A DNA stretch of 64,000 nt. Origin: Sinohyriopsis cumingii (taxonomy: Eukaryota > Mollusca > Bivalvia > Unionida > Unionidae). The stretch is taken from the NCBI GenBank assembly GCA_028554795.2, contig CM068825.1, forward strand, positions 154,921,553-154,985,552, given 5' to 3'. Made by a program: the position numbers and the translations under genes. A model generated the notes under the pieces. It was not told where the DNA came from and made no database searches. It worked only from the letters and a program-made list of their open reading frames with translations. This document shows, piece after piece, positions 6,564-25,708 of the stretch (positions are counted from its first letter, which is position 1; every line of letters starts with the position of its first letter).

Positions 6564-6579
6564 GGCCCTTTTCAGGGCC
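6564..6579 (+). terminator. Histone-type 3' stem-loop (perfect), followed by ACCCA and purine element
   Basis: AAA precedes GGCCCT-TTTC-AGGGCC, a perfect 6-bp stem with a TTTC loop. ACCCA follows (6580-6584) and GAAAAGAAA begins at 6593, 13 nt after the stem. Replication-dependent histone mRNAs have the same order: hairpin with TTTC loop, ACCCA, cleavage, purine-rich downstream element. It closes the Q-rich gene. Confidence 0.8.
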
Positions 6580-6737
6580 ACCCACATTTCTCGAAAAGAA
6601 ATACAATTTCAATTTGCCAATAACTCAAAAGAAAACCCACCCATTTTACCCTTATAGTACGTTTCTGTGTATGAGTGCGTGAGTGTACGTTCTTATTTTA
6701 AAATCAAAACTCAAAGACACTTACCTTATATCATTAA

Positions 6738-6743
6738 TTTATT
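6738..6743 (-). terminator. Poly(A) signal AATAAA of the zinc-knuckle gene
   Basis: TTTATT on the plus strand reads AATAAA on the minus strand, about 90 nt past the stop of the minus-strand gene. The intergenic stretch 6602-6827 otherwise holds no gene. Confidence 0.45.
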
Positions 6744-6827
6744 CTTTTATCCATTTTTACAATCCAATTCACAATTCACAACACAACACTTTAATTAAAA
6801 GTTCATTGACTTCTTCTTTCTCCTTGT

Positions 6828-7331
6828 TTAGTCTCTCTGTTTTTTGAATTTCTTCACCGTCTTTTCCTCTTCTTTCTCCTCATTTTCTTCCCTTCTTCTT
6901 TTCTTCTCCTGTTTCTTTGCCTCTTTTAAATAGAATTGTCTTCTTTCTTCCTCTTCTTCCTCTGAAGAATCCCTCTCTTCCTCTGAAGAATCCCTCTCTT
7001 CCTCTGAAGAATCCCTCTCTTGTTCTGAAGAATTCCTCTTTTTTTCTGATTCCTCTTGTTTTTTTTTTGGGCAATATGGAGACCAATGTCCTTTTTCTTT
7101 ACAATAATAACAGGTATCTTGACTTTTGTCCTTTTTAGGCCCTGTTTGTTTTCTTTTTTGACGGTCTGGACACTCTGAAGACCAATGCCCTTTCTTCTGA
7201 CAGATATAGCAAGTATCTTGACTTTTATCTCGAAAGGAAGGAGAGTAGTCCGTGGGCTGGTCTGAAGAGAATTTTCTAATGACCCCTCGCAAAGCTCTGA
7301 CGAAACGTTCGATTTGGTTAGTCTCTTCCAT
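6828..7331 (-). CDS. CCHC zinc-knuckle protein of the Polinton
   Basis: Minus-strand gene of 167 residues from the ATG at 7331. An earlier in-frame ATG at 7379 is too close to the TATA box at 7385-7392, so the second is preferred. Two CCHC knuckles, CYICQKKGHWSSEC and CYYCKEKGHWSPYC, separated by a basic linker, suggest single-stranded nucleic-acid binding. Three direct repeats of SSEEERD follow, then a long E/K/R-rich coiled coil to the C-terminus. It is the only core gene on this strand and is divergent from the polymerase. Zinc knuckles of this type are known from retroviral Gag and CNBP-like host proteins. Here the role is unknown, perhaps genome or mRNA binding. The frame is intact. Confidence 0.75.
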   Translation of the reverse strand: MEETNQIERFVRALRGVIRKFSSDQPTDYSPSFRDKSQDTCYICQKKGHWSSECPDRQKRKQTGPKKDKSQDTCYYCKEKGHWSPYCPKKKQEESEKKRNSSEQERDSSEEERDSSEEERDSSEEEEEERRQFYLKEAKKQEKKRRREENEEKEEEKTVKKFKKQRD

Positions 7332-7384
7332 CGTTGTGCTCGGCTTGAGAGTGAAATGAATAGTGAAAGGACAAGACACGCACC

Positions 7385-7417
7385 CTTTTATATACGCTGG
7401 TCTGCCATGACTATAAA
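7385..7417. promoter_or_regulatory. Divergent promoter pair: zinc-knuckle gene (-) and polymerase (+)
   Basis: TATAAAAG on the minus strand at 7385-7392 (54 nt before the minus ATG at 7331) and TATAAA on the plus strand at 7412-7417 (about 50 nt before the plus ATG at 7466). Two core promoters sit back to back within 33 bp. Confidence 0.6.
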
Positions 7418-7465
7418 TTTGTTTATGGTGTTTACACTTGAGTCATTTGACGTTTTGCACTCAAG

Positions 7466-10400
7466 ATGAAACGATCCCATTCATTCGAGAAGAAAGAAGA
7501 AGAAGAAGAAAGTAAGAGGCAGAAACGTGATCCATCGCCTCGTACCAGAGCTGAAATCTTGGCACAAATTCATGCCAGTGATTTTGAAGAGGACATGAGT
7601 GAACCAGAATTTGAAACCTCTAAACCAAGTTCGTCACCCTTAGTCAACCTTGAAAAATACTATTCCATTCGAGAGACGGAAAAGCGCTCCTCTAGAAAAT
7701 TTAGAACCACGGCTTACACCTACACGGTGAAGTTTAAAGATTTCAAGGCCGACGTACCATTTGAGAAAGCAGAAGGGTTCATCACCGAGATGTGGGATTC
7801 TTTGCTCACCGCACTCAAGCGACAATGTCAACCCAAAGAAGACGATCGCTTGACACTATCCATAGATCACGACGGTTTGAAATCCCCTGCTTGGATCGAG
7901 TTTAGCAGACCCGCAGAACTAACCCCTTCCAAAATCATGGACAAGATTCAACACGTACAACAATCTAATGACCAGTTTGACATCACCGATGGTAAAGCCA
8001 CACTGAAAATGGCTCACGTCTCTCTTCCTCAAGGGACAGGACGCAAAAAGATGTTATTGGTGGACGACCTTCGCAACACCAAAAAGAGTCTCGTCCGAAT
8101 TAACAACCCTCAAGACCAGATGTGCTTAGCCCGTGCCATCGTGGTGGGACGAACCTATGCCAACAAGAACGACACGGTAGAATGGAAAAGAACCTGGGAG
8201 AACATTCGAAAATCGAACCGAACCAAACAATGAAACGAAGCAGAACTCCTGTTGCAACAAGCTGGCCTGTCCAAAGACACACCCTGCGGCATTCCTGAGA
8301 TGCAAAAATTGCAAGATGCCCTAGCTCCACGCTACACCTTGAAAGTTCGCACTCAAGAAGTGCGTGGGCCTCAATTGTTTCGAGGCCAAGCTTTTAAGGA
8401 TTGAAAATACATTCATGTCTATTATCACGATGACCATTTCGATACCATTACCAGTATCACTGGATTCCTGGGATACAGATATTACTGTGAGAAATGTGAC
8501 CGTGCTTATAATAATCGAGAGCAACACAAGAATTGTGGAATGAAATGCCCAGGATGTTTGGCCTCTCCACCCTGTCTGAGCGAAGGACCAGTGCCTTGTT
8601 CAACTTGTCTGCGCACGTTTGTCAGCCCTACCTGTTACCAACAGTATTTGAAAACACAAGGTTCACAGCAGAAATGTGCTTGTCAACTCCTGAGATTGTG
8701 CCCTACGTGTGGACAAGGCATACTTACCAAAAAGGCCAAGGCACACGTATGTCGAGGAAAGAAAAAATGTCACATTTGTCACCACATCGTGGACTTGGAA
8801 CACCAAGGCTACGTGCAAAAATACCAACCCCCACCAGAGAAAGAGGACGGTCACAAGAAGAAAGGCAATTTCATCTTTTTCGATTTCGAATGCATGCAAG
8901 AGACCGGCATTCACATTCCTAATTTTTGCGTGGCTCATCGAGCGTGCGAGAAGTGCATTCAAGAACCTATCTTCAGTCATTGCCCTCACTGCAGCAAGAT
9001 TCCTGGAGGACGTGAAAAAAATCTTTCGGGGACCGAACACGTTAGCCGATTTTGCCCAATGGGTCTTAGATCCCATCGACAAGACGTGGAGCCAAGAGGA
9101 CATCGAACGTTACGGAGATTGTCATCGTCATGCCACGGTGATGGCTCACAATTTCTCCCGATACGATGGACAGTTTCTTTTGAGATACTATACGGAACAA
9201 GGCACCGAGCGTCCTCAAGTGACTTTGAACGGAGCCAAAATCATTTTCATGCAAGTGGGACAAGTACAGTTTAAAGATTCGATGAGCTACTTGGCCATGC
9301 CTTTGAGTCGAATGCCTAAAACGTTTGGAATGACAGAAATGGCTAAAGGGTACTTTCCACACTTTTTCAATACGGAAGCCAATCAACACGCCGTTCTACC
9401 CCATTTACCTGAGGCTCACTATTACGACCCCGACAACATGCGTACCGAACAACGAGAAGCTTTCTACGCTTGATACCAGGCTCACGCCTCGGACCCTTTC
9501 GACTTTCAGGAAGAAATGCTGAAGTATTGTCGTTCCGACGTGGACATTTTACGGCGTTGCTGTGGAAAATTTCGAGAACTGTTCATGGAACACGGAGGGG
9601 TCGATCCTTTGAAAGAAGCTTGCACCATTGCCAAAGCGTGTTCCTTAGTGTATCGACAACGATTCATGCCTGAAAACACCGTAGCTGTCATCAGTCCTCA
9701 AACGACCCACTATGTCAAGCGTCAATACTCGGTCAAAGCCCTACGCTGGTTACATTACTTGTGCGACAAGGAAGACAAATGGATTCAGCATGCCCGCAAC
9801 GGAGGGGGTGAGAAGACCATCGGAACGTATTCGGTTGATGGCTGGGACTTAGAAAACCCCAAGATCGTGTACGAGTTTAATGGTTGCTTATTTCACGGAT
9901 GTCCCGTCTGTTACCCTGATCGTAGCACTAAAAATCAGTTTTTACAACGAACCATGGAAGACCTGTACCAGGACACTTGTCAACGGCGCCTAAAGTTGGA
10001 ACAGGAAGGATACCAAGTGGTGGAAATGTGGGAACACGAGTACGATCACCGTATGAAAACCGATCCCGAGTTTAAACGCCTCGTGGAAAGTTACCAGTTC
10101 ATGGACCTCTGAACCCGAGGGATAGTTTGTACAGAGGAAGGACCAATGCCACCTGTTTGCTGTACCAAGCCGACGAAGAGAAAGGAGAAGAAATCAAATA
10201 CTTGGATGTGTGTTCGCTGTATCCCTACGTGTGCAAATATTGTCACTTTCCTACAGGGCACACGCGATTGCTGACGGAACACATCGACCTGGTCAACATT
10301 CGACAATACGAAGGCCTGATCAAGTGCAAAGTTTTGCCTCCCACGAACCTATACCATCCCGTCTTACCTCACCATTGTCAAGGCAAACTGATGTTTCCCT

Positions 10401-11509
10401 TGTGCCGTACTTGTGCCGAAACGTGCAATCAAGACCAGCCTTGTCAGCACACCCAGGAAGAACGGGCCTTGACGGGAACCTGGGTCAGCGTAGAATTGTT
10501 CAAAGCTATGGACATGGGATACCAACTGTTAGAAGTGTACGAAATTTGCCACTTTCCCAAGACACAACAATACCACAAGGGTGACCCTACTCAGAAAGGC
10601 ATTTTCGCAGACTACGTGGATGCCTTTTTGAAACTGAAACAAGAAGCCAGCGGCTATCCTTCCTGGTGTCACACTCCCGAAGACCAAATAAAATTCAAAG
10701 AGAAATACCGGGAACAAGAAGGCATCACTTTAGACCACATCGAGAAAAACGAAGGCAGGCGATCGTTTGCCAAAGTGATGTTAAATTGCTTGTGGGGTAA
10801 AATGGCACAACGACCGTGTTTACCCAAGACGGAATATTTGACCGAACCTTCCCGCTACTTCCAGATGATTCACGACAAAACCAAATACATGAAACACGTG
10901 GACGTCGTTCGAGAGGATTTGATCTTGGTCAATTACGAAGAAGATCTGGACTTTGTACAAGACGACCCTTTTGGAAATGTCATCATTGCGGCTTACGTGA
11001 CAGCTCATGCTCGCTTAAAATTGTACGAAGCTTTAGAACTGTTAGGGGAACGCGTCCTGTACTTTGACACGGACAGTTGCATCTACATCGATCGACCGGG
11101 TCAGCAACACCCTGACATCGAAGGAGACCGTTTAGGAGCCTGGACAGACGAACATCCTGACGACAAGATTCTAAGTTTCGTCAGTGGTGGTCCCAAAAAT
11201 TACGGCTACGAATACCGGGACCCACAAGGAGAAGTGCACACGACGTGCAAAGTGAAAGGACTGTCTCTGAATCATCGTACCAGTCGAGTGGTCAACTTTG
11301 GGGTATTGAAAGAAGCCTTGCAATCGGGAGAGGATGGAAACTTTAAAGTGACCACCTATCAACCGAACAAGATTGTACGTTTACCCACTCACCACATCGT
11401 CAGTCGACCCTTGGAAAAAGTCTATCAAATCGTGTATCAGAAGCGAGTGCGACTACCCAATCACTTTACTTTGCCGTATGGACACGTTGGTATAAAACAT
11501 TGGTTGTAA
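7466..11509 (+). pseudogene. polB: Protein-primed DNA polymerase B, inactivated
   Basis: About 1,347 codons. The N-terminal third is lineage-specific, then Cys-rich pairs (about 8490-8760). Exonuclease motifs: DFE near 8880, HNFSRYDGQF near 9147 and YCRSDVDIL near 9525. Polymerase motifs: DVCSLYP near 10205, LNCLWGKM near 10785, YFDTDSCIY near 11060 and KVKG near 11250. These identify the family B protein-primed group. The frame is cut by in-frame TGA at 8231, 8402 and 9471 (the last two where Trp would be expected), by a frameshift in the A run at 9015-9021 and by another near 10106. All motifs survive, so decay is recent. In Polintons it copies the genome using a terminal-protein primer. 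This copy cannot give a full-length product. Confidence 0.93.
11491..11497 (+). promoter_or_regulatory. TATA box of the first BIR gene
   Basis: TATAAAA lies 36-42 nt upstream of the ATG at 11533 and inside the last codons of the polymerase. Confidence 0.5.
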
Positions 11510-11532
11510 GAGGATAGTCACACGCTAGAAAG

Positions 11533-11991
11533 ATGACTTCGCCACAGCAAGAATCGAGTGAGAAACCCGATGAGAACTCCAAGTTCAAACCCTACCATTT
11601 TCCAGTCTTCTTACCTGACTATTGTGATTGTGCCCGTCGATTGGACACGTTTCAAAAATGGCCTACGGATAGGGAAGGATTACCTTCTTCGCATGTTTTA
11701 GCTAGAACAGGATTTGTCTACTTGGGACATGATTCAGGATTGGGATACGAGGTACAGTGTTTCGCTTGCGGACTGAAGTTACGAATGGATCTATGTATCT
11801 ATAAAGATTCAGCTATTCTGGAACATACTCGATGGTCTCCGCACTGCCCTTACCTTTCTATGGCCTTTCCGCCCATCACACTACGGTACAATGTTGACGG
11901 TACCTTAGAGACGGTACCTTCCGAAACAAGACATAAAAAACGTAAAAAAGGAAAGATGTACAAGCTGGAGACTGCATTGCGACTAGTATAA
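11533..11991 (+). CDS. BIR-domain protein 1 (IAP-like)
   Basis: 152 residues, intact. One BIR domain at residues ~36-108: RLDTFQKWP opening, LARTGFVYLG, then zinc ligands C76, C79, H98 and C105. The Trp usual after the CxxC pair is missing (LRMD), which may change peptide binding. A short basic tail follows and there is no RING domain, so ubiquitin-ligase activity is not expected. BIR domains bind caspases or IAP-binding motifs. A role in delaying host-cell death is an inference from the family. A second BIR gene follows at once, and the stop codon of this gene lies inside the next gene's TATA box. Confidence 0.85.
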   Translation: MTSPQQESSEKPDENSKFKPYHFPVFLPDYCDCARRLDTFQKWPTDREGLPSSHVLARTGFVYLGHDSGLGYEVQCFACGLKLRMDLCIYKDSAILEHTRWSPHCPYLSMAFPPITLRYNVDGTLETVPSETRHKKRKKGKMYKLETALRLV

Positions 11992-11994
11992 AAA
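11987..11994 (+). promoter_or_regulatory. TATA box of the second BIR gene, overlapping a stop codon
   Basis: TATAAAAA. The TAA at 11989-11991 is the stop of the upstream BIR gene. The ATG at 12051 is 57-64 nt downstream. Confidence 0.55.
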
Positions 11995-12050
11995 GGGGGC
12001 TATGGTCAAGATCGATAGTTCATTGTGACTACCAAGACCGAGCGAACAAG

Positions 12051-12689
12051 ATGAATACTTTCAGAGAAACACAGAACAAGTTGTTTAGAAAGGCACAATT
12101 CAAGTGTGAGGCTTCTGAAGTGGAATGCGATTGTGAGCCTTGCGATGGGTACGATGCTGTACCTTGTGACCTGAGCGATGCCGTAAAGCATCATGGGAAC
12201 TTTAGTGTCCCTACCCCTATCATGGAAAGTGATGCTGTGCGTATCAAACCTGTGGGATGCGAAAGTGATGCCGCTCGTCCTCTTGGACATTTTACTGGGT
12301 TTCGTTTTAAAGGGGAATGTTCACCTTCACGTCTACCCCCCTACGGATGTCATCCAGCCCTGAGCAAACTCCTGTTCATGTCACCCAACCCTCATCGAAA
12401 CGAACCTGTGAAAGATGAATATTCGTTTCCTGTGCGTTTGTCGGAATACTGCGACTTTGAAAATCGTCTTCAATCGTTCAAAGGAAAATGGCCTAAGTAT
12501 CTGGGAGGACCGACCCCCGAAGAATTAGCCAGAGCCGGATTTTTCTACTTGGGCGAAGGAGATAAAGTCAAGTGCTTCAGTTGCGGTGTGTCACTTCACC
12601 ACTGGGAACCGCAAGATTCGGCCTACGTAGAACATGCTCGATGGTCACCGAATTGTCATTACTTACCCTTAGTGGGACCGAGACATTGA
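12051..12689 (+). CDS. BIR-domain protein 2 (IAP-like) with Cys-rich N-terminus
   Basis: 212 residues, intact. The first ~120 residues are unlike any family I know. They are Cys-rich with repeats of a SDAV/SDAA motif (CDLSDAV, MESDAV, CESDAA). A canonical BIR follows at ~134-206 with RLQSFKGKWP, LARAGFFYLG, ligands C175, C178, H195 and C202, and the conserved Trp185. No RING. This is the more typical of the two BIR domains and the better candidate for a working caspase or IBM-peptide binder. It has its own TATA box in the preceding gene. The pair may have arisen by duplication, as the flanking motifs (EHxRWSPxCxYL) match closely. Confidence 0.87.
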   Translation: MNTFRETQNKLFRKAQFKCEASEVECDCEPCDGYDAVPCDLSDAVKHHGNFSVPTPIMESDAVRIKPVGCESDAARPLGHFTGFRFKGECSPSRLPPYGCHPALSKLLFMSPNPHRNEPVKDEYSFPVRLSEYCDFENRLQSFKGKWPKYLGGPTPEELARAGFFYLGEGDKVKCFSCGVSLHHWEPQDSAYVEHARWSPNCHYLPLVGPRH

Positions 12690-12700
12690 AGTAACTTACC

Positions 12701-13102
12701 ATGTCGTTGACGAAGAAGAAACCAGATTGGCTAGGAGTCAAATGTTGGACATCACCGAGACCAGTATTTAAACTTCATTTCAAAAACGATATTGAATCAT
12801 TACCTAAAGAACTGCAAGAGAAGATTTACAAGGAAGTTTGGCAGGGGTTTGCCAGAGTGAAATCTCAATGGATCACTGTATAACTTTTGTGTCGAGAAAT
12901 TCATAAGAGGAAAGTGAAAAAAGTCAACCAGTGTGTCAGATTTCTTTGGGTCAAGGGTGCATTCATCCTATTATATCGCTTTAGACCGTTTACATCAAAA
13001 GAGTTCAGTGACATTCTTGGACGTTACCCTGAATGGCAGTGGTCAGAAATTACTCACTATGTGGATTACTTTTGTGAATTGTACGGACTGACCTATTCAT
13101 GA
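12701..13102 (+). pseudogene. F-box-like repeat gene, copy 1, one stop
   Basis: ATG at 12701. Contains SLPKELQEKIYKEV, which resembles the opening helix of F-box-type motifs (LPxELxxxI). A TAA at about 12884-12886 interrupts the frame, which then goes on to 13102 with a W/Y/F-rich helical tail. Its TGA stop overlaps the ATG of copy 2 (ATGA). The F-box suggestion rests on a short motif only. Confidence 0.4.
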
Positions 13103-13333
13103 ATACTTTACAAGAGAACATTCGTGCTTTGCCTGTGGAATTGAGAGAAAGGATTTACTGAGAACTGGTCAAAATACAAGTGGAACGCAAACTCGAAGTG
13201 ATTGAACCGTTTTTAAATTATGCTCTGTTCCAAAGTACAAGAAGACTGATTATGAGTGGATATTACATTAGGCACAAAGTTAAACGAGGCTATTGGCCAC
13301 CACCCAACGATTCCAAAAACAGTGTATATACTT
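13099..13333 (+). pseudogene. F-box-like repeat gene, copy 2, truncated
   Basis: Begins with ATG at 13099 overlapping the stop of copy 1. MNTLQENIRALPVELRERIY is almost the same as the start of copy 3. A TGA at about 13159 stands where copy 3 has CGA, a C-to-T change at a CpG. The rest continues open to near 13333, where copy 3 begins. Confidence 0.45.
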
Positions 13334-13825
13334 ATGGATACTTTACAAGAGAACATTTTGGGCTTGCCTGAGGAGTTGAGAGAAAGGATTTACCGAGAGC
13401 TGGTGAAAATACAAGTGAAACGTAAAGAACAATTGCATCCGTTACGTCACCAGATCTTTAACCACTGGTACCTGAATGGCATAAGAGAACTGATTCGTCA
13501 GAAATTGTTTCAATGGTCAGACATTGTTCAAAACTTTGAGGTCGCTAATGATCGACATGTTCATAATTATGGTTACTTCGAGATTCACCTAGTGCAACGC
13601 ATTGAGGAAGACAAGTTAAAGGATTACCAACATTTGTTACGTAGAATCTACTTAGCGGAAGAGGAAACTTCTAAACGAACTCTGACGTTTCGGTTACAGT
13701 ATGCAAGATTTAGATTCCCTACTGGAGAACGAAGATCTCTGGCTAGAAAGTACGTGTATTGCATCCTAGAAAAAGAGAATATAAAAACAGGCTGCCATGC
13801 CACGGCTTATGTCACATGTCATTGA
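13334..13825 (+). CDS. F-box-like repeat gene, copy 3
   Basis: ATG at 13334 (in an open frame from 13256). 163 residues, starting MDTLQENILGLPEELRERIY, followed by a mostly helical, basic and aromatic protein. The LPEELRERIY segment looks like the first helix of an F-box, which would recruit Skp1 in SCF ligases. Only that motif supports it. It is the only open copy of three tandem versions. Its last codons overlap the ATG (13797) of the next decayed frame. Confidence 0.5.
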   Translation: MDTLQENILGLPEELRERIYRELVKIQVKRKEQLHPLRHQIFNHWYLNGIRELIRQKLFQWSDIVQNFEVANDRHVHNYGYFEIHLVQRIEEDKLKDYQHLLRRIYLAEEETSKRTLTFRLQYARFRFPTGERRSLARKYVYCILEKENIKTGCHATAYVTCH

Positions 13826-14385
13826 ACAGATTCCGTGGAAGGAACTGAACGACCATATTCAAACCGTGGATCATTACCATCGATTATTACAAGAACTGTA
13901 TCCATTCAATTTGGGACGACAAGTGGTGTGTGTCTGAGTGACTTGTTTTCTGGGATTTCGTTTACCAGCCGATTCTTTGTGGACTCTTTACGATCAGTAC
14001 TTACCACCTCAATGGCCTTAAATGGTCACGAAAAACTCCTTTTGCTCAAAGCCTTGCGTTTTCATCTGGATACTTCTCGACCTCAATAGGAAAAAAAGAT
14101 TCGTCTACTTTTAGCTACCCAAGACGTGTATGACGATGTGTGTGTAGCTTGTGACTTACATCCCCATTGGACAGATGTCCGTGCCTGGAAAGAATGGGGT
14201 TTTGAGCCTTGGACCCAAGAAGTAGCCCAGTATGCACGAGAGTTGTTCAAGGAAAAAAGTTACTTTTCAACCCGTGTTAGTGACGGTGCCAGAAGAACCC
14301 GTCACACAGGACAGGACTGTCGTGGACAGACCTGAAAGACCCTTTCGGGAGGGTTCTATAGTAAGGGGTAAGGTCACACTTGTGT
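13797..14385 (+). pseudogene. Decayed gene of unknown function
   Basis: From the ATG at 13797 a protein-like frame (IPWKELNDHIQTVDHYHR) runs to a TGA near 13937, resumes in the same frame, shifts near 14015 to another frame (KLLLLKALRFHLDTSRP, TAG at 14087, then LLATQDVYDDVCVACDLH…), and shifts again near 14255 at an A run. At least two stops and two shifts. No recognised domain. It reaches the palindrome at 14353. Confidence 0.4.
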
Positions 14386-14408
14386 GACCTTACCCCCTAC
14401 TATAGAAC
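14353..14408. repeat. 56-bp near-perfect palindrome
   Basis: Arms of 27 bp (gttctatagta…ggtcacac and its complement) with a 2-nt loop and one G/T-type mismatch. It sits between the replication/accessory half and the packaging/virion half of the element, 228 bp before the ATPase ATG. It could act as a terminator hairpin, an insulator or a replication structure. Confidence 0.8.
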
Positions 14409-14559
14409 TGGTTAGAACATTACCCAAAACATGTTGTTGTTGTACAGACACTTGTTTTTATTCCACGTTCATGGTTATCATGTGCCTTTTATCGTTGTAC
14501 TTAAGCCTTTGGCTTTTATGTATTTATGTCTTTCGTATTCATGTTTGAAAAAAACATTC

Positions 14560-14565: not shown

Positions 14566-14580
14566 CGTGTTCTGAAAAAG

Positions 14581-18646: not shown

Positions 18647-18651
18647 CCATC

Positions 18652-19017
18652 ATGCCCTTTCACACAACAGACGTAGCTACGTCGACCACTCCATCACCTA
18701 GTTCTTCTGTGCAAGATTTACAAAAACAACCCTTGTGGGTGTGGTGTGGAGAACGTGTGCCTAAAACGCAAATCGTCTTTTTCTGCCAAATCTTCGTGGT
18801 GTAATGTGTCATCGGGGCAGCCATTGCCAATTTGAGTTTGCAACAAGGAGACAAACAATTGTGGACGATTTTATTGAGCAGTTGCATCGGTTACCTGCTT
18901 CCCAATCCCTCCCTGAAATTCTCCTCGAACGGGAACCTTGTGTCCAGTGCCAGTGCCAGTCACCACTCCAACCACAACCACAACCAGAACCCCATTTTGG
19001 GCGGGACACGCCTCTGA
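18652..19017 (+). pseudogene. Small transmembrane protein, one premature TAA
   Basis: ATG at 18652, 12 nt after TATAAAAAG (18632). The frame reads VPKTQIVFFCQIFVV, TAA at 18802-18804, then CVIGAAIANLSLQQGD…LWTILLSSCIGYLLPNPSLK and a His/Asn-rich tail to 19017. Two hydrophobic segments are separated by a polar turn. I recall proteins with the same LLSSCIGYLLPNP ending in other Polintons, so this is likely a conserved virion membrane protein. The stop falls inside the first membrane segment and would abolish it. It overlaps neither neighbour. Confidence 0.6.
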
Positions 19018-19057
19018 CGTCCAGTAACCCCTCGGACAGCCACAGAACTCTGGAATT

Positions 19058-19993
19058 ATGAGTCACGAAAACCAATTTTACTTAACCTTACCCAGTGACA
19101 GTTCCATGGAGGTGTTTCCCCACAACACGTTGTGCTGTTACACGGCTAAATTACCTCAAGCCATCCCCTTAGATCACGAAGCCCATTGGGAAGTGGCTTT
19201 AGTAGAAATGATTCACCCGACCCAAGTCCTCAATGTCCTTCCCAATCAAAATAAATTTGATGTGGAAGTTCTTGACGTGCCATTGCAACAGGAATTGGAT
19301 AAGAGAGCCATGTCTGACGTTAAAAAAACCTATAATGACAAAACTAAAACGTGGACCTACCACTTGTTCATTCACCCAGGCTATTATTTTAGTGGTCATC
19401 ATTTGGTCAGCGCCATAGCCTCCAGGTTTAATGGCGTGTTTGGGAAAGCTTTGGAGCAGCTCAACAACAAAAGTGTCACCATGGAGTACCACAAAGTAGC
19501 TCGTCGCTTCTTGATGAAATTTGAGCGGAGTAAAATTGTGTCCATTTTATTTTGTCCTGAATTGTTCGACATGTTGGGCGGAGACATGAACATGAGAACG
19601 ATCATACTCAATAACAACGAATTACCCATCGTTTACGACAACGAGTCGTTTAGCAAGTTATTTCGTACCCCGGTAGAACTGAATCAAGGACTGAATTTGA
19701 TGTTCGTGTATTCCGATGTGGTGGAATACAACGTGGTGGGACACACCTCCGTGCCGTTACTGCGTGTCATTCCTTTCAAAGTGGATTCTGCCACGGCCGC
19801 TGACGAGGAAGGTGGAAACAATTACCACGTCCACCGCGAATTTGTCCATCCTCACTATTTGCCGGTCAGCAAGTCGTATTTGGACACGGTCAACATTGCT
19901 ATAAAAGGAGATCTGGGACAAAATATTCCATTCACCAAAGGAAAAGTCACGGTGAAACTCCATTTTCGAAAACAGTTCTCTCACGATTCGTAA
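19058..19993 (+). CDS. Minor capsid protein (penton, single jelly-roll)
   Basis: 311 residues, intact. Begins with FYLTLPSDSSMEVFPHNTL and a WEVALVEMIHP segment, the signature of the Polinton minor capsid (PY) family, which by structure prediction forms a single jelly-roll at capsid vertices. A long middle (DMLGG, PIVYDNESF) and a C-terminus ending VKLHFRKQF agree with family length. The next gene starts 7 nt after its stop. Confidence 0.9.
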   Translation: MSHENQFYLTLPSDSSMEVFPHNTLCCYTAKLPQAIPLDHEAHWEVALVEMIHPTQVLNVLPNQNKFDVEVLDVPLQQELDKRAMSDVKKTYNDKTKTWTYHLFIHPGYYFSGHHLVSAIASRFNGVFGKALEQLNNKSVTMEYHKVARRFLMKFERSKIVSILFCPELFDMLGGDMNMRTIILNNNELPIVYDNESFSKLFRTPVELNQGLNLMFVYSDVVEYNVVGHTSVPLLRVIPFKVDSATAADEEGGNNYHVHREFVHPHYLPVSKSYLDTVNIAIKGDLGQNIPFTKGKVTVKLHFRKQFSHDS

Positions 19994-20000
19994 GTAAGTC

Positions 20001-20420
20001 ATGTATCCAGTGTACCGAGGGATTGCTCGACAGCGAGGACACGGTTTAGGAGACATGTTAAAATCGGCCTTTCGTTCGGTGGCCCCGGTGTTGAAACCGA
20101 TGGTGACACGCGGATTGCACGCCTTGAAAGATGCGGCACTGACGCAAGGCAAAGAATTTCTCCAAAATGTCATCATCGACAAACAAAACCCTAAAGAAGC
20201 CTTCATGAGGGTAGGTAAAAATGTCTTGCTGCAAACGGGTAAAGACATTTTAGGCCGACGAGACACATCTATAAATGCCCTGCACGCTACCGAGTCAGGC
20301 ATTCAGCAAGGACAAGGCAGAAAGAGACGACGACGAAGAAAACACCCTTTCACCAGACTTCAAGCGAGAAAGGCCAAGAAAAGAAGAACCGTTCGAGACT
20401 TAGACGTTTTCGATTATTGA
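20001..20420 (+). CDS. Basic small virion protein (pVI-like?)
   Basis: 139 residues, intact. N-terminus YRGIARQRGHGLGDMLKSAF is amphipathic, followed by helices and a strongly basic end (GRKRRRRRKH, KAKKRRTVRD). Position between minor and major capsid and composition recall adenovirus pVI or core proteins, but similarity is too weak to name it. 13 nt separate its stop from the major capsid ATG. Confidence 0.6.
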   Translation: MYPVYRGIARQRGHGLGDMLKSAFRSVAPVLKPMVTRGLHALKDAALTQGKEFLQNVIIDKQNPKEAFMRVGKNVLLQTGKDILGRRDTSINALHATESGIQQGQGRKRRRRRKHPFTRLQARKAKKRRTVRDLDVFDY

Positions 20421-20433
20421 AACACAGAAAAAA

Positions 20434-21732
20434 ATGATTCACCGAGAGTCTTGCGCTTGTTCCAAGACGGAACTGGATCTGTTTGCCATGCCACCCACCA
20501 TGATGACGATCCAAGAATCCCAGTGGGTGGAATTTCACCCCGTCTCCTCATTAACCGATTCCGCTCCCATCGAGTTTGAAATCAAAGGACAACCCGAAGA
20601 TTACATCGATCTGAATAGCAGTTACTCGTACTTGAAAGTCCAAGTTCTAGAAAAAGATGATAGTGGAGTAGAGGACACTGAAGAAATAGCTCCCGTCAAC
20701 AATTTCATGCATTCCTTGTTCAGCTCAGTGGATTTGTACTTGAATAACAAACTAGTCAGCAGCAGCATGGATACTTACCCTTACCGTGCCTACCTGGAAA
20801 ATCTCTTGACGTACGGAATAGATGCCAAGGATACTCATCTCAATGCCTGTGTGCTGTGGGTACCTGACGAAGCGGGCAAGTTCGACAAATTGGATGGAAC
20901 CAATTCCGGCTTTGAGGCAAGAGAAAGCAAAATCTTAGATAAGAGGAGTTCAGAACTGATGGATCGTTTGCATTTGGACATGTGGTTGCAAGAGAAATAT
21001 TTGCTGAACGGGGTGAATGTCCACTTGAGACTGAATCGCAGCAGTACCGCTTTCCATTTGCTGGCTGATCCTGCTAAGGCTCCTAAAAGCAAAATCGAAG
21101 AGGCCAAACTCTACGTACGACGCGTGGAAGTGTTACCCAAAGTGGGAAACGACATCAGTCAAACGTTGAGCAGAACGACCGCCAAGTATCCCATACGACG
21201 TGTGGAAGTGAAAACGTTCACCATTCCCGCTGGACAGCATTCTATGATCGAAGATCATCTGTTTCAAGGACAGTTACCCAAGCGTTTAATCCTTGGTATG
21301 GTCTTGATTTCAGCCTTCAACGGAGCCTTCGCTCAAAATCCTTTCAACTTTCAACACTTCAACGTGAAGAAAATCGAAGTCAGTCGCGATGGCAAGACCT
21401 TGTGTACCCGACCTTTCGAACCTGACTTTACCAAGATGAATTACTTGAGATCGTACTTGTCCCTGTACGAAGCCACCGGCCAGTTAGGAACCAACACCAG
21501 TCACGGCATTGAGTACGAGGATTACGCAGGAGGCTATGCTTTGTGGGCATTTGATTTCACTCCAGACCAAGGCAGCGACGAGGGACATTTCCACCCTATA
21601 AAATCTGGCCAGATTCGTGTGGAACTTCAGTTTGCAAAAGAACTACCAGCGACAGTGAACGTCATCCTGTATGCAGAATTCGATAATACCATAGAAATCA
21701 ACAGTTTGAGAGAAGTCATTCTAGATTATTAG
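20434..21732 (+). CDS. Major capsid protein (double jelly-roll)
   Basis: 432 residues, intact. Starts with SCACSKTELDLFAMPP, then WVEFHPVSSLTDSAPIEFEI, DYIDLNSSY and NNFMHSLFSSVDLYLNNK, all typical of Polinton MCP. The second half holds RRVEVKTFTIPAGQ and ALWAFDFTPD, marking the second jelly-roll. The family builds hexons of an icosahedral shell. A later ATG at 20485 also exists but would drop the conserved leader. No damage is seen. Confidence 0.95.
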   Translation: MIHRESCACSKTELDLFAMPPTMMTIQESQWVEFHPVSSLTDSAPIEFEIKGQPEDYIDLNSSYSYLKVQVLEKDDSGVEDTEEIAPVNNFMHSLFSSVDLYLNNKLVSSSMDTYPYRAYLENLLTYGIDAKDTHLNACVLWVPDEAGKFDKLDGTNSGFEARESKILDKRSSELMDRLHLDMWLQEKYLLNGVNVHLRLNRSSTAFHLLADPAKAPKSKIEEAKLYVRRVEVLPKVGNDISQTLSRTTAKYPIRRVEVKTFTIPAGQHSMIEDHLFQGQLPKRLILGMVLISAFNGAFAQNPFNFQHFNVKKIEVSRDGKTLCTRPFEPDFTKMNYLRSYLSLYEATGQLGTNTSHGIEYEDYAGGYALWAFDFTPDQGSDEGHFHPIKSGQIRVELQFAKELPATVNVILYAEFDNTIEINSLREVILDY

Positions 21733-21737
21733 AAGCC

Positions 21738-22244
21738 ATGGAAGACTGTTATCCCTCTTTACCTAGTGGAGAAACGTTCGACATGAAATGTGAGGAGACC
21801 GTGGAAAAAGAAGAATCTCAAGACAAAGACGAAGAAGTTGTCATGATGAAGTCGAGATGGCCAGAACAAGAAGCCCATTTAGTCTCCTGTTTTGCCAAAC
21901 ACTTGGTCGATAAAATGACGGAATTGATCAAGAAAAATTGCTATGGATGTCAAAACGATCATCCCAGTCAAATTCAACACGATAAATGCCTGATGTTGAG
22001 TCAAGAAGAAAAATTGGACGAGTATCTGGATGAAGCTTGGAGTCTCATCTCGAACAAAGATGTGTTGCACCAGTGGTATAAAGACTTGCGTGAACATTCT
22101 TGTCCACCATTAACCACTCAAGAGATCCATCGTATCGAAGCTCTCCTGAATCAGAGTGAGGAAACAGAACGAATAACCGTTTATTCGTCAGACATTTTGA
22201 AGCAAAAGGTCAGGATCGAATTGATGACTTATTATTACCTGTGA
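21738..22244 (+). CDS. Conserved Polinton protein with CxxC…H…C motif
   Basis: 168 residues, intact, 5 nt after the major capsid stop. Acidic N-terminus, then a helical body with CYGCQNDHPSQIQHDKCLM, a possible zinc site (C-x2-C-x10-H-x2-C). A similar CxxC…SQ…H…C motif is, from memory, seen in this position in other animal Polintons. Function unknown. Confidence 0.65.
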   Translation: MEDCYPSLPSGETFDMKCEETVEKEESQDKDEEVVMMKSRWPEQEAHLVSCFAKHLVDKMTELIKKNCYGCQNDHPSQIQHDKCLMLSQEEKLDEYLDEAWSLISNKDVLHQWYKDLREHSCPPLTTQEIHRIEALLNQSEETERITVYSSDILKQKVRIELMTYYYL

Positions 22245-22266
22245 AGAAAAAACAACACACAAAACA

Positions 22267-22827
22267 ATGGATACCTGGGAACTGTATTACCTTTTGAACC
22301 ACAGTTCGTATACGGCTTCTTGGAATCCTGTCGTCTGTGCTAAAGATGAACTCCCTCATCGCAAACCTCAAGACCATCAAGCTTACGTGATCAACACGAA
22401 CGACAGTCATCTCCCAGGAACCCACTGGGTAGCCGTTTACTTTCCTCAAGAAGGATGTGTGGAATATTTCGATTCGTACGGATTGCCCCCTTTGGAAGAC
22501 GATATCATCGACTTTATGAGAAGAAATGCTCAGACCACCCGATTCAATAATGTGAAATTGCAAGGCACAGATTCCTTGGTGTGTGGACAATACTGTGTGT
22601 ATTTTCTGCATCATCGCAGCCTAGGCTATTCCTTAGAACATTTAGTGACTCATTTTGATCCTCGTTCTTCTGCTAGAAACGATGTGAAAGTAGATCGATG
22701 GTTTTGTGACCATTATGCTTATCTTTTGTCTCAAGCTAGGAAACGTAGTGTCCATCAATGGCCTAATGATTTCCAACAGTGGAAATCACAATTTCATTCA
22801 CAACTTTGTAAGCCCTGTTTAAAGTAA
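22267..22827 (+). CDS. Adenain-like capsid maturation cysteine protease
   Basis: 186 residues, intact. Catalytic H53 (GTHWVAVYF), D69 (VEYFDSYG), Q99 and C106 (SLVCGQYC). The Q-to-C spacing of 7 equals that in adenovirus protease (Q115, C122). The family cleaves capsid and core proteins during virion maturation, and ULP-type host proteases share the fold. It ends the core operon-like series, with a poly(A) signal 117 nt later. Confidence 0.94.
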   Translation: MDTWELYYLLNHSSYTASWNPVVCAKDELPHRKPQDHQAYVINTNDSHLPGTHWVAVYFPQEGCVEYFDSYGLPPLEDDIIDFMRRNAQTTRFNNVKLQGTDSLVCGQYCVYFLHHRSLGYSLEHLVTHFDPRSSARNDVKVDRWFCDHYAYLLSQARKRSVHQWPNDFQQWKSQFHSQLCKPCLK

Positions 22828-23078
22828 ACTGTAAATTGAGAAAAAAATGTTTGTGATTTGAAAAAAAATGTTTGATGTTATAGTGTTGGATTATTGTTTA
22901 AAATATGTTAGAGTTGTTGTTGTTTAGTGTTAAGTGATTTTTGAATAAAAAATGTTGTGTTTTGAAAAAAAATGCCTTTGTCTTTTGTTTAGCTATAAGA
23001 ATGTTGGATTGATGCTCTTTCATTTCTTACTATCCCTCGCATGACACTCACTGAACGTTGCGGCTCGAAAACCGTGTG
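22828..23078 (+). other. Spacer after the protease, with poly(A) signal
   Basis: No gene. Contains AATAAA at 22944-22949 followed by GTTGTGTTTTG, and three A-run-ATG(TTTG/CCTTTG) repeats. Confidence 0.5.
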
Positions 23079-23104
23079 GGGGATGTTTTCCTTCACGTCC
23101 GCGC
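23079..23104 (+). promoter_or_regulatory. Right-end promoter box, copy 1
   Basis: GGGGATGTTTTCC, then TTCACGTCCGCGC. A TATA-poor ACTTTAAG follows, and the next ATG is at 23171. Confidence 0.6.
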
Positions 23105-23170
23105 TTTGACTTTAAGAACCGGGGTTGTTTCCAGTCTAACCATCCATTGTCGACTCATCCTCCTACGAAG

Positions 23171-23539
23171 ATGTGCTCCAAACTAGCTAAGTTCAACGAA
23201 GCCTACGTGAATTTGCATAGGGTCAGACACAGTCTGATACCGAAGCCAGAAGAAATAGAGAATGTGAGAATGTTAAAAATCACTGAAGACCTGATAGAAG
23301 AGCTCTTCAGAGAAGAAATGAACAGGGAAAAAGAAGAATGGACAGAGAAGTACAGACTTCAGAGACAGCAGCAACAGCAGCAACAGCAGCAACAACAACA
23401 ACAGCAGCAGCAACCTGAAGCTGACAGAGGCTTTGTCGATTGTCGTATCGACACCAAAGAGTTCTTCTTCTCTTTCCGAAGAAGCAGACCTATCGCCAGA
23501 AAGTCTATCCTCAGAGGACATCGCATTCTTAGAAACTAA
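23171..23539 (+). CDS. Q-run coiled-coil protein
   Basis: ATG at 23171 (the frame opens at 23147), 122 residues. Helical acidic/basic N-terminus (EEIENVRMLKITEDLIEELF), then RLQRQ and a run of about 18 Gln coded by mixed CAG/CAA, then a short basic tail. After the Gln run another frame (TEALSIVVSTPKSSSSLSEEAD…) looks at least as protein-like, so a frameshift within the repeat is possible. The stop at 23537-23539 has the histone-type hairpin 29 nt behind it. Function unknown. Confidence 0.45.
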   Translation: MCSKLAKFNEAYVNLHRVRHSLIPKPEEIENVRMLKITEDLIEELFREEMNREKEEWTEKYRLQRQQQQQQQQQQQQQQQQPEADRGFVDCRIDTKEFFFSFRRSRPIARKSILRGHRILRN

Positions 23540-23568
23540 AAAAGAATGCCATAGCAAACAAAAAAAAC

Positions 23569-23584
23569 AGCCCTTTTCAGGGCT
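23569..23584 (+). terminator. Histone-type 3' stem-loop (perfect)
   Basis: AGCCCT-TTTC-AGGGCT, 6 perfect pairs, followed by ACCCCA and, 14 nt after the stem, GAAAAGAAA (23599-23607). A normal AATAAA lies at 23650-23655, so both types of 3' signal are present. Confidence 0.75.
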
Positions 23585-23942
23585 ACCCCAATACTCTAGA
23601 AAAGAAATAACGATCGATTTGCCAATGTGTGTAGGTAGAGTAGTGTGAAAATAAACACTAACTCTTTTTTAAAAAATGTGAGGGTATGTGTTTGTGTGTT
23701 TGTGTTTGTAAGTGGTTAAGTAAGTTGGTATGGATAGTAGATTAAAATGATGTCTTTTTTGGTGTTTGAGGTGTAAATTTGGGGTTAGATTGGATTGCTT
23801 TGCGTATGAGGATAGTCTATTGAAGTGATTTATAAAAAATTTAAAATAGTGATGGGTAGCATAAAAAAGTGAGTGTTTCTTTTAGGTCCGCGCGTTGTTG
23901 TTTTTGGTTATGATCTAGGTAAGATCAATTTTATGTTTTTAG

Positions 23943-23968
23943 GGGGATGTTTTCCATCACGTCCGCGC
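23943..23968 (+). promoter_or_regulatory. Right-end promoter box, copy 2
   Basis: GGGGATGTTTTCC, ATCACGTCCGCGC, then TCAGTATAAATTG (TATA). The ATG at 24038 is about 60 nt past the TATA. A copy of GATCTAGGTAAGATCAATTT lies just upstream and is repeated before copies 3-4. Confidence 0.6.
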
Positions 23969-24037
23969 TTTCAGTATAAATTGAAACTCGCTCGGCAGTC
24001 TAGCTACCCTTGTTGATTGATCAACACCGCCAGAAGA

Positions 24038-24346
24038 ATGAACACCAGAATTGTGAAACTGTTAGAACTCCAGATGCACCTGGAATATGCCAGGCGCATA
24101 GTAAATGAACTATCAGCGGAGGCTATCGTAGAAGAAGCAATAATAAAGAACGAAGAGGAGGAGAGAAGAGAGAGGTAAGAAGAGGAAAAGAAAATAGGAG
24201 AGAGGATGTCATACAATATTCCCGAGACAGAGGATTGGGGTGCTGAAGCGAATCATCCCGCCTCTGCACTCTCAAGACAAAAAGTAAAAAGAGACTGGAG
24301 TCAAAGATGTGTGTGTGGCGCCAGGCCTGGAAGGTGCAACCATTAG
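24038..24346 (+). pseudogene. Small helical protein, one in-frame TAA
   Basis: ATG at 24038. 46 residues of amphipathic helix (KLLELQMHLEYARRIV…) end in an E/R run at TAA 24176-24178. The same frame goes on open and protein-like (IGERMSYNIPETEDW…) to a TAG at 24344-24346. The TAA is inside AGG-TAAGAAG, which is also a splice-donor match, so it could mark a mutated codon or an intron edge. Hairpin 28 nt after the TAG. Function unknown. Confidence 0.4.
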
Positions 24347-24374
24347 ATAGGTGCATCTGGAGTTAAAAAAAAAC

Positions 24375-24390
24375 AGCCCTTTTCAGATCT
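24375..24390 (+). terminator. Histone-type 3' stem-loop (decayed)
   Basis: AGCCCT-TTTC-AGATCT. Two central stem pairs are lost. ACCCA follows and GAAAAGAAA stands 13 nt after the hairpin. The surrounding 100 bp are a duplicate of 23562-23670. Confidence 0.5.
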
Positions 24391-24605
24391 ACCCAATACT
24401 CTAGAAAAGAAATAACGATCAATTTGCCAATGTGTGTAGGTATAGTAGTGTGAATATAAACACTAACTCTTTATTAATAGTGCGAGTGTTTGTGTTCGTG
24501 TTTGTAACTGCTCAAGTAAAGTTTGTGTGAATAGTAGTTTCTTTATTGTTTCTTAGCGTATGTGGAGAGTATAGTTCGGGTTTTATTATATAAAATGAGA
24601 AAAGT

Positions 24606-24700
24606 GGGGATGTTTTCCTTCACGTCCGCGCGTTGTTCGGTCATGATCTAGGTAAGATCAATTTTATGTTTTAGGGGGATGTTTTCCTTCACGTACGCGC
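24606..24700 (+). promoter_or_regulatory. Right-end promoter box, copies 3 and 4
   Basis: Two boxes, 24606-24631 (GGGGATGTTTTCC, TTCACGTCCGCGC) and 24675-24700 (same, with ACGTACGCGC), then TTTAAGTATAAG. A five-codon upstream ORF (ATGATGGAACCATTCTAA, about 24729) precedes the main ATG at 24763. Confidence 0.6.
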
Positions 24701-24762
24701 TTTAAGTATAAGAACCCACAAAGTTTGATGATGGAACCATTCTAAGGAATAACTGAGACAAA

Positions 24763-25356
24763 ATGACTCAAGTATCAGTTCTATTTAATCTATTGAGAGA
24801 CATCTATTTCTGGATAATGGATGTAGAATATGTTTTAGGAAGAAGAGAAGAGGAATGGAGGCATGGAGATATGAAAGACTTTGTAACGAGTCAAGTTCAA
24901 GGCCTAAAGACAGCAAGAGATATCATAGCAGGGATGATTGAAGAAGAAGTCAATAAGTCAAGAGGCTTCATCAACCCACCTTACTTCAGAGTGGGAAGTT
25001 TGAAGGAAGCACTGGATAATGTCATCAAAGTCAGGTGCTTCCTAGAAAAAATATTGTACTGGACAGAGTGGAGAAATGTAAAATGGGGATTGGAAAAGGT
25101 GAAGAAAGGGGAAGATCTGATGAGAAAAGTAATGGAGGAAGAAGTAGAGAAGATTAAAGAGAAATGGTGGGAAGAAAGAAAAGATGTGGTAAACAAAAAG
25201 AAACAGGCAGAGTTTGAGAGGTTGAATCAGAATTGGATAAAAGTTCAGGAAAAGTTTAGAGCTCTAGGTCATCCTGACTGGATGCCAGAAAAGGAGAAAA
25301 AGAAGACAGGAATAGTGACAAAAGTGAGAAGATGGTTGAAGAAGTGGAAGTGTTAG
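24763..25356 (+). CDS. Helical protein next to the right repeat (197 aa)
   Basis: Intact frame from ATG 24763 to TAG 25354-25356. Mostly alpha-helical, with an aromatic N-terminus (NLLRDIYFWIMDVEYVLG), a hydrophobic middle and a long K/E/W-rich coil (VEKIKEKWWEERKDVV) ending in a basic RRWLKKWKC. No family recognised. It has two promoter boxes upstream and its stop lies 12 nt before the histone-type hairpin of the right repeat, so the repeat itself supplies the 3' end. Confidence 0.65.
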   Translation: MTQVSVLFNLLRDIYFWIMDVEYVLGRREEEWRHGDMKDFVTSQVQGLKTARDIIAGMIEEEVNKSRGFINPPYFRVGSLKEALDNVIKVRCFLEKILYWTEWRNVKWGLEKVKKGEDLMRKVMEEEVEKIKEKWWEERKDVVNKKKQAEFERLNQNWIKVQEKFRALGHPDWMPEKEKKKTGIVTKVRRWLKKWKC

Positions 25357-25362
25357 AAGAAA

Positions 25363-25708
25363 CCCAAAGGCCCTTTTCAGGTCCAGCCATATTTCTCGAA
25401 AAGAGATAGCCTTTCAATTGCCTACCCTTCTTTTAAATTTAAATTTAAATTTAAATTTAAAAAAATTTTTTTTTAAAAAAAAAATAATCCCATATTCAAT
25501 TCCCCTTGTCCCTAGACAAGCCCAAACTCTATTCCTCATATTAATTTCCCTTGTCCCTAGACAAGCCCAAACTCTATGTTAAATTCCCATTGTCCCTAAA
25601 GTGGCCCAGGGTTTTTCTCCATGTTAAATTTCCATTGTCCCTAAAGTGGCCCAGGGGGTGTTTTTAATGCTAAGTCCCATTGTCCCTAAAGTGGCCCCCT
25701 TTACTACT
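25363..25708 (-). repeat. Right terminal inverted repeat
   Basis: Reverse complement of 5148-5494 with few differences outside the A/T tract. Its inner edge carries the hairpin that ends the 197-aa gene. Confidence 0.97.
25369..25384 (+). terminator. Histone-type 3' stem-loop in right repeat, pointing outward
   Basis: GGCCCT-TTTC-AGGTCC, five of six pairs. AGCCA follows in place of ACCCA, then GAAAAGAGA 13 nt after the stem (25398-25406). Confidence 0.65.

Follow-up and report, generated by a model that had tools for sequence, protein, structure and literature searches.

The hairpins that follow several small genes at the ends of a Polinton/Maverick element of the bivalve Sinohyriopsis cumingii raise the question of whether these genes, which are not histone genes, use the host pathway of histone mRNA formation. 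Based on analysis of the window, i.e., the whole stretch of 64,000 nucleotides containing the element, and of related copies in the genome, we propose, with a probability of about 0.86, that in this Polinton family host SLBP and U7 mediate histone-type expression of the terminal genes. The sequence, position and conservation of the signals, as well as their identity to the signals of host histone genes, are established.

The element and its terminal genes

The element is bounded by inverted repeats (5148–5498 and 25360–25708, 96% identical) and a 6-bp target duplication, GTCAAT, at 5142–5147 and 25709–25714 (Table 1). In a profile search, the Polinton genes DNA_pol_B_2, rve+Chromo and Pox_A32 were identified above the cut-off, and Peptidase_C5 below it. 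PolB of the window copy is in pieces, and the gene that we take to encode the capsid is labeled by its homologues, mostly uncharacterized F54H12.2-like proteins.

The left-outward gene has longer copies elsewhere, mostly of 76–78 aa, with the stop codon 21–24 nt upstream of the hairpin (12 rows). Its codon-position differences (0.139/0.067/0.310 in 40 distinct copies) clearly indicate purifying selection. For the left-inward gene, encoding 182–196 aa in other copies, the respective values (0.032/0.034/0.059) point to purifying selection weakly. The right-terminal gene has only four relatives in the database search. Profile scanning of four terminal ORFs, 5967–6299, 6358–6540, 23171–23539 and 24763–25356, revealed no histone domain.

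Table 1. Features of the element and of the related remnant in the window.
Feature	Coordinates	Strand	Description
Polinton/Maverick element	5148..25708	.	20,561 bp; inverted repeat at each end
Histone-type hairpin of left-outward gene	5474..5489	-	Inside left inverted repeat; 4/6 pairs, decayed; HDE GAAAAGAGA intact
Left-outward terminal gene	5601..5747	-	48 aa in window copy
Left-inward terminal gene	5967..6540	+	Two ORFs in window: 5967-6299, 6358-6540
Left-inward histone-type 3' end	6559..6604	+	AAAAA, GGCCCT-TTTC-AGGGCC, ACCCA, GAAAAGAAA; 41.2 bits
CCHC zinc-knuckle gene	6828..7331	-	Followed by ATTAAA/AATAAA (6795, 6743 on -); no histone hairpin
Protease-like gene	22267..22827	+	3' of capsid gene; AATAAA at 22944; no histone hairpin
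Histone-promoter word	23082..23105	+	23/24 letters of host H2B word; upstream of gene at 23171
Right terminal gene 1	23171..23539	+	122 aa, glutamine-rich
Right gene 1 histone-type 3' end	23564..23609	+	AGCCCT-TTTC-AGGGCT, ACCCC, GAAAAGAAA; 29.3 bits
21-bp word	23876..23896	+	Identical to host H4 promoter (L085:1401)
24-bp word	23946..23969	+	Identical to H2B promoter (L085:2230); 23/24 in H1 promoter (L085:5629); then TATAAA
Third right-end site	24370..24414	+	Diverged duplicate segment; stem 4/6 pairs
24-bp word, two copies	24609..24701	+	At 24609 and 24678; two mismatches each; before right-terminal gene; TATAAG past second copy
Right-terminal gene	24763..25356	+	197 aa
Right-terminal gene histone-type 3' end	25364..25409	+	Inside right inverted repeat; 5/6 pairs; 25.0 bits
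Histone-type 3' end past left-outward-gene homologue	59512..59557	-	Remnant of related element; 27.2 bits

Histone-type signals in the window, the host and the family

A preliminary description had claimed four plus-strand sites, and all four are present, with stems starting at 6564, 23569, 24375 and 25369. Stop-to-hairpin distances of 23, 29, 28 and 12 nt, respectively, reproduce the described range of 12–29 nt, and GAAAAGA of the downstream element (HDE) starts 13, 14, 13 and 13 nt past the stem, at the described 13–14 nt. Two minus-strand sites, 5489 and 59552, had been overlooked. The 6-bp stems ascribed to the four sites are indeed seen, with 6/6 pairs, at 6564 (GGCCCT/AGGGCC) and 23569 (AGCCCT/AGGGCT, the outer pair being A–T instead of G–C), but 25369 has five pairs and 24375 has four. 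The search with the Rfam Histone3 model (RF00032, cut-off 34 bits), suggested as a check, yields 41.2 bits for 6559–6603, the only window site above the cut-off; 23564, 59512 and 25364 score 29.3, 27.2 and 25.0 bits, and 24375 and 5489 are absent from the matches at E≤1. Chance hairpins are ruled out, as the hairpin core followed by GAAAAGA at the set spacing occurs six times in the window, compared to 0.00 expected (100 shuffles).

The site at 24375 is not independent, because it lies inside a diverged duplicate of the 23560–23979 segment (71% over 423 aligned nt). ACCCA deviates at 59552 and at the inverted-repeat sites of the window. Two of the five in-element sites fall within the inverted repeats, and the other three are located 1.3 to 2.2 kb inward, on the sense strand past a stop codon. 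The sites of one element are partly mutual duplicates, and there may be copying between the inverted repeats.

The proposed comparison with host histone genes, made for one repeat unit (L085, gene order H3-H4-H2B-H2A-H1), revealed agreement in the stem, its distance to the HDE and the HDE core. All five genes of this unit are hairpin-ended, with the stem 27–38 nt past the stop codon and GAAAAG 13–14 nt past the stem; the stem is GGCCCT/AGGGCC in H3, H4, H2B and H2A, and GGTCCT/AGGACC in H1. The only candidate for the host SLBP in an exon-wise genome search, a PF15247 match below the cut-off in unrelated sequence, was rejected.

Genome-wide, we considered the best-scored 75 of 589,472 first-look Histone3 candidates in 2.9 Gb, a sample and no census. 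All 75 are above the cut-off, a level reached in none of 14 prokaryote control genomes. A Polinton-family gene is found within 1.5 kb of 66 of these loci, and a family inverted repeat at 74, both with and without filtering of AT-rich tracts and low complexity; each locus has at least one of the two. The risk that the stem might not be conserved in related elements has not materialized: all these best-scored matches represent the same Polinton family, and hairpin and HDE are present at 26/26 left-inward sites that were not Histone3 matches themselves (48/49 in total), as well as at 9/9 right-terminal 3' ends, eight of them being the Histone3 match itself. As the loci were gathered via hairpin matches, these fractions describe members with at least one such match.

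The distance between the stop codon and the hairpin is 19–27 nt in 49 left-inward copies and 13–60 nt in nine right-terminal ones, and the HDE follows the stem at 13 nt in 41 sites out of 42, and at 14 nt in the remaining one. Perfect stems are observed in 33 of these 42 sites, which were picked by a pattern fixing the inner stem and loop. The outer pair is G–C in 24 and A–U in nine of 38 distinct rows. The stem covariation score exceeds all 500 shuffles, with both-sided changes at one stem pair only, the number of such pairs being no higher than in shuffles. Column conservation in 50 left-inward rows is 0.985 for the stem-loop, 0.984 for ACCCA and 1.00 for AAAAGA, compared to 0.818 for the spacer and 0.878 for 40 nt past the HDE; the coding end (0.968) and the UTR before the hairpin (0.963) are conserved nearly at the hairpin level.

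The 24- and 21-bp words shared with histone promoters are longer than any obtained with 100 random elements, for which the maximum is 17. A 17-bp word common to the element and the histone repeat does not exceed this random range, and a run of 17 bases in which two left ends agree, with P of about 0.06, is not extreme alone. Our conclusions rest on position and conservation, together with the longer promoter words. Of 13 right-terminal genes, 11 are preceded by the 24-mer (up to five mismatches), which is located at –84 to –89 in ten cases; the count of the 21-bp word, also 11 of 13 at ≤5 mismatches, was dropped because of overlap between the matches of the two words.

Other genes of the family present a different picture: AWTAAA follows 4/4 protease genes and 11/12 CCHC genes, none of which (0/4 and 0/12) has a hairpin, whereas for right gene 1 copies these numbers are 0/4 for AWTAAA and 4/4 for the hairpin.

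Proposed expression mode and alternatives

The hairpin, the downstream signal and some promoter words being the same as in host histone genes, the messages are probably histone-like and lack a poly(A) tail. Recruitment of SLBP and U7, cleavage, S-phase timing, absence of poly(A) and the purpose of the arrangement are what we infer from sequence, as follows. In terminal-gene transcripts, the hairpin (GGCCCT-TTTC-AGGGCC, or AGCCCT/AGGGCT) would be the binding site of host SLBP, GAAAAGA, 13 nt past the stem, would pair with U7 snRNP, and cleavage past ACCCA would produce short hairpin-ended mRNAs without poly(A). The identity to the HDE cores of host histone genes lends indirect support to the predicted pairing with host U7. 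Promoter words shared with host H2B/H1 and H4 probably activate the right-end genes. The likely effects would be strong expression during or around S phase, the time at which the element can replicate, and freedom of terminal-gene mRNAs from control via the poly(A) tail. The protease gene, at the end of the capsid cluster, and the CCHC gene have ordinary poly(A) signals, and hence would be expressed separately. It seems rather likely that the element follows a two-class programme, the terminal genes being full mimics of histone genes (promoter and 3' end), transcribed at the same time as these and yielding tail-less S-phase mRNAs, and the capsid genes being polyadenylated.

The signals could instead be passengers from captured pieces of host histone genes, non-functional now or from the beginning. 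Their close match to host histone genes, the location, in promoters and a 3' end, of the three longest non-simple words common to the element and the histone repeat, and broken stems in several window copies are consistent with such an origin. Still, we consider it unlikely, as the signals are sense-oriented past at least four different genes of one element and retained in all 26 left-inward copies outside the Histone3 matches; the spacer and the stretch further downstream are more variable than the stem, ACCCA and HDE, the outer stem pair has changed on both sides, and the left-outward gene shows purifying selection. It is also quite unlikely that the genes have dual 3' ends, histone-type in S phase and polyadenylated otherwise, as reported for some histone genes (H2A.X, H2B). 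AWTAAA within 150 nt is observed in 17/49 left-inward 3' regions, which makes additional poly(A) use possible there, and in 1/9 right-terminal ones (raw counts), and AATAAA is present at 23650 past right gene 1 of the window; but AWTAAA is absent from all four other copies of right gene 1 and from 8/9 right-terminal copies, and it easily arises by chance in AT-rich sequence.

The location of two in-element sites in the inverted repeats would suit DNA signals, e.g., for replication, packaging or integration, merely resembling histone RNA signals. This is very improbable given the internal, sense-strand position of the other three sites past stop codons, and would leave the HDE, its spacing and the identity to the host unexplained. 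The Histone3 match in the window might also mark host histone genes or their remnants, with the element inserted beside them, which is hardly credible: none of the best-scored 75 loci has a core histone gene within 1.5 kb, and the host histone genes, among the matches listed, sit in tandem repeats elsewhere in the genome.

Histone-type expression of the terminal genes, if true, would be the first case of a non-histone set of animal mRNAs, and of a mobile element or DNA virus, shown on the histone mRNA pathway. Virus-like elements would thereby gain a simple tie of gene expression to host DNA replication. Copies of the element would supply many natural variants of the signals that may be tolerated by SLBP and U7 of the host. 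The signals are also a cheap marker for terminal genes of such elements.

Comparison with known systems

The literature search yielded no report of histone-type expression signals on Polinton genes among the matches listed. In a viral contig collection, no protein relatives were found, some pattern-matching stretches having failed tblastn, and motif scans did not find the hairpin motif. The same Rfam model is reported to match coronavirus genomes, inside a coding region (PMC7786107); that match, at 14.7 bits, is far below the 34-bit cut-off, and the account of it describes no downstream element at this place.

Among animal, including molluscan, Polintons/Mavericks, the element is typical in its inverted repeats, 6-bp target duplication, PolB, rve-chromo integrase and FtsK/A32-type ATPase, as well as in the weak match to the adenovirus-type protease and capsid homologues. 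It differs in histone-type promoter words and 3' ends of its terminal genes. The suggested extension of the Histone3 search to other Polintons did not bear out a wider occurrence: four distant animal Polinton contigs (inside bacterial MAGs), whose fragments cover little of the terminal regions, have no match at E≤5, and the model specific to the present Polinton family reaches no more than 15.3 bits (E 0.5). Hence the signal is not established for Polintons in general.

Like the five histone genes of L085, the element shares with replication-dependent histone mRNA 3' ends (RF00032) the 6-bp stem with a TTTC loop, the A-rich 5' flank, ACCCA, GAAAAGA 13 nt past the stem and proximity to the stop codon. 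Unlike in those systems, its genes are small non-histone genes of a virus-like transposon, and the A–U outer pair of some element sites is found in none of the five L085 genes. Similarity to the host H2B, H1 and H4 promoters comprises the 24-bp word GATGTTTTCCATCACGTCCGCGCT (24/24 in H2B, 23/24 in H1) and the 21-bp word (H4). In the element the word differs in being mostly doubled, with a second copy upstream in 10/11 loci, and the TATA-like box follows 29 nt from the word start, compared to about 52 nt in H2B.

Histone-type hairpins in and around the element

The element is a Polinton, located in a 2.9-Gb assembly and bounded by inverted repeats with 96% identity over 351 bp; GTCAAT, a 6-bp duplication read directly from the sequence, flanks it at either side. 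Its genes specify PolB, here broken into pieces, together with an integrase of the rve-chromo kind, an A32/FtsK-type ATPase and two BIR proteins, and there is a weak match to the adenovirus-type protease. For the 432-aa protein, which we take to be the major capsid protein, 941 relatives were found, and all animal names displayed for the 120 listed are molluscan (Mercenaria, Ostrea, Crassostrea, Saccostrea, Littorina), which makes a molluscan host probable.

The four hairpins with a U7 histone downstream element (HDE) reported behind small Polinton genes in the preliminary description are all present on re-reading, with the 6-bp stem described for them perfect at two sites and carrying mismatches at the other two. 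Two additional sites were identified on the minus strand, and the combined hairpin and HDE pattern has 6 matches in the window vs 0.00 expected. Aligned across 419 columns, the element and the remnant around the site at 59552 are 64% identical; CCAAAGGCCCTTTTCAG is the longest run without a difference, and CTCGAAAAGA is one of three such runs of ten bases. Past the HDE the two are hardly alike (17/44).

Positions of genes, hairpin sites and other features in the window
Feature	Position	Strand	Remark
Histone-promoter word copy	3307-3333	+	outside element, 2 mismatches, no evident TATA box or gene
Polinton	5148-25708
Hairpin site	5489	-	left inverted repeat, behind leftward gene
Left-outward gene	5601-5747	-
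Left-inward gene	5967-6540	+
Hairpin site	6564		perfect stem
TTTCAATTTGCC-like stretch	6607-6621		past HDE, one example among Polinton sites
CCHC zinc-knuckle gene	6828-7331	-
BIR-domain (inhibitor of apoptosis) ORFs	11533-11991, 12051-12689		45% alike across aligned part
Self-complementary stretch (93%)	14353-14408		56 bp, upstream of ATPase gene
432-aa protein	20434-21732
Protease-like gene	22267-22827	+
Right gene 1	23171-23539	+
Hairpin site	23569		perfect stem
Promoter word TTTCTTTTAGGTCCGCGCGTT	23876
Promoter word GATGTTTTCCATCACGTCCGCGCT	23946
Hairpin site	24375		two mismatches
Right-terminal gene	24763-25356	+
Hairpin site	25369		one mismatch
Tandem satellite	28292 to about 32370		periods 49/46 and 145 bp
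Related Polinton remnant	34233-36106	-	PolB part 82% identical to 10374-11563; homologue of 7466-8233 gene
Hairpin site	59552	-	behind 67%-identical copy of left-outward gene, in remnant outside element

Conservation of the signals in the element family

Search of the host genome with the Rfam Histone3 model produced at least 75 matches, all above the model cut-off and spread over many contigs, this being a lower bound because 75 of 589,472 first-look candidates were scored; no match above the cut-off was observed in any of 14 prokaryote control genomes. In about 3 kb of surroundings, taken for all 75 loci (20 + 55), a gene of the element family is found at 66 loci (tblastn, E<=1e-4), its inverted repeat at 74, one or the other at all 75, and a core histone gene at none. 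Extension of four of the nine gene-less loci revealed right gene 1 of the family in each, and three of these (L081, L083, L084) have protease and capsid genes as well.

As motif-based choice of sites was to be avoided, 3' ends within these loci, all from elements with at least one Histone3 match, were located by protein homology. Hairpin and HDE are present at 48 of 49 left-inward ends, the remaining one having the hairpin with a variant HDE, and at 9/9 right-terminal ends, eight of which are the Histone3 match itself. Conservation in related elements, on which the preliminary description made its reading depend, is seen, for hairpin and HDE together, at 26/26 left-inward ends that are not themselves Histone3 matches.

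Among the genes examined, the signals are restricted to terminal genes. Counting raw AWTAAA occurrences within 150 nt, we observe AWTAAA in 4/4 copies of the protease gene and 11/12 of the CCHC gene, with hairpins in 0/4 and 0/12, vs 0/4, 1/9 and 17/49 copies of right gene 1, the right-terminal and the left-inward gene, with hairpins in 4/4, 9/9 and 49/49. Neither signal occurs at the 3' ends of the 3 capsid and 2 integrase gene copies.

In 42 sites picked with a pattern fixing the loop and inner stem, six Watson-Crick pairs are formed in 33 and the HDE lies 13 nt from the stem in 41. Of 38 distinct rows, 24 have G-C as the outer pair and 9 have A-U. Covariation scores higher than in any of 500 shuffles, but both-side changes occur at the outer pair only, and the number of such pairs is no higher than in shuffles. 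The A-U form mostly occupies the site that precedes the right-terminal gene and therefore may stem from a single old change.

Across 50 left-inward rows, mean column identity reaches 0.985 in the stem-loop, 0.984 in ACCCA and 1.00 in AAAAGA. The spacer has 0.818 and the 40 nt past the HDE have 0.878, with good conservation of TTTCAATTTGCC inside those 40 nt; the UTR ahead of the hairpin (0.963) and the coding end (0.968) are near the hairpin's own identity. An open reading frame for the left-outward gene (72-82 aa) is present in 41 entries, 40 of them distinct, and its codon-position differences of 0.139, 0.067 and 0.310 show selection on the protein; the left-inward gene (24 distinct; 0.032, 0.034, 0.059) has much less sign of selection.

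Scope of the trait

The trait is established for one Polinton family in one genome, since four distant animal Polintons (L001-L004) have neither a histone-type signal nor the promoter word (best 9 mismatches), but are fragments. The MAGs whose contigs contain these fragments are bacterial (symbionts of tubeworms and mussels, Breoghania, Rickettsiaceae), and the fragments are probably host contamination. Among the literature matches listed, with subscription papers and preprints thinly covered, nothing connects histone-type 3' ends with Polintons, with other mobile elements or with DNA viruses; the same holds for passages of PMC6303110, PMC7786107 and PMC12846552, and PMC4028283 gave no match in a term search.

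SLBP was not found in the host genome by exon-wise search, a match at L025 (G000:C4:22740991) being spurious. This locus contains dense small ORFs and is possibly another virus-like element.

Comparison with host histone genes

Host core histones form tandem repeats of about 8.3 kb each (150 matches, from 662 candidates, were scored), and one unit, L085, encodes H3, H4, H2B, H2A and H1. The comparison with the host's own histone genes proposed in the preliminary description shows similar architecture in 5/5 genes: a hairpin 27-38 nt past the stop (GGCCCT-TTTT/TTTT/TTTC/TTTA-AGGGCC in H3, H4, H2B and H2A; GGTCCT-TTTC-AGGACC in H1), then CTAGAAAAGA (in H2A, CCCGAAAAGG), with GAAAAG 13-14 nt from the stem. 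The Polinton-site model run on L085 recovers exactly the five histone ends at E<=1 (41-56 bits). Past the HDE, host H2A has TCAATTTTGCC (L085, about 3716-3727), resembling Polinton TTTCAATTTGCC; this stretch may be an additional part of the signal.

The longest non-simple exact word common to the element and L085 is GATGTTTTCCATCACGTCCGCGCT (24 bp), whose host copy lies 107 nt ahead of the H2B start; a 23/24 version precedes H1. Second in length is TTTCTTTTAGGTCCGCGCGTT (21 bp), located in the host H4 promoter, and third is the hairpin (17 bp); the longest word shared with L085 is 17 bp in 100 random elements and likewise in 38 kb of window sequence beyond the element. With up to 5 mismatches, 11 of 13 loci have the 24-mer upstream of the right-terminal gene; L075 starts within this gene, and L037 has no 24-mer. 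Ten loci have it at -84 to -89 and one, whose protein match starts 15 residues late, at -133; a TATA-like box begins 29 nt past the start of the 24-mer in 10/11 loci.

We infer from these motifs that SLBP and U7 would bind, with cleavage, absence of poly(A) and S-phase timing. A replication-linked purpose is our guess, and it fits the element because a PolB-type polymerase is encoded. The signals are present, in place, conserved and identical to host signals at both ends, and the simplest account is that the terminal genes would be expressed as histone-type mRNAs via the machinery serving the host's own histone genes.
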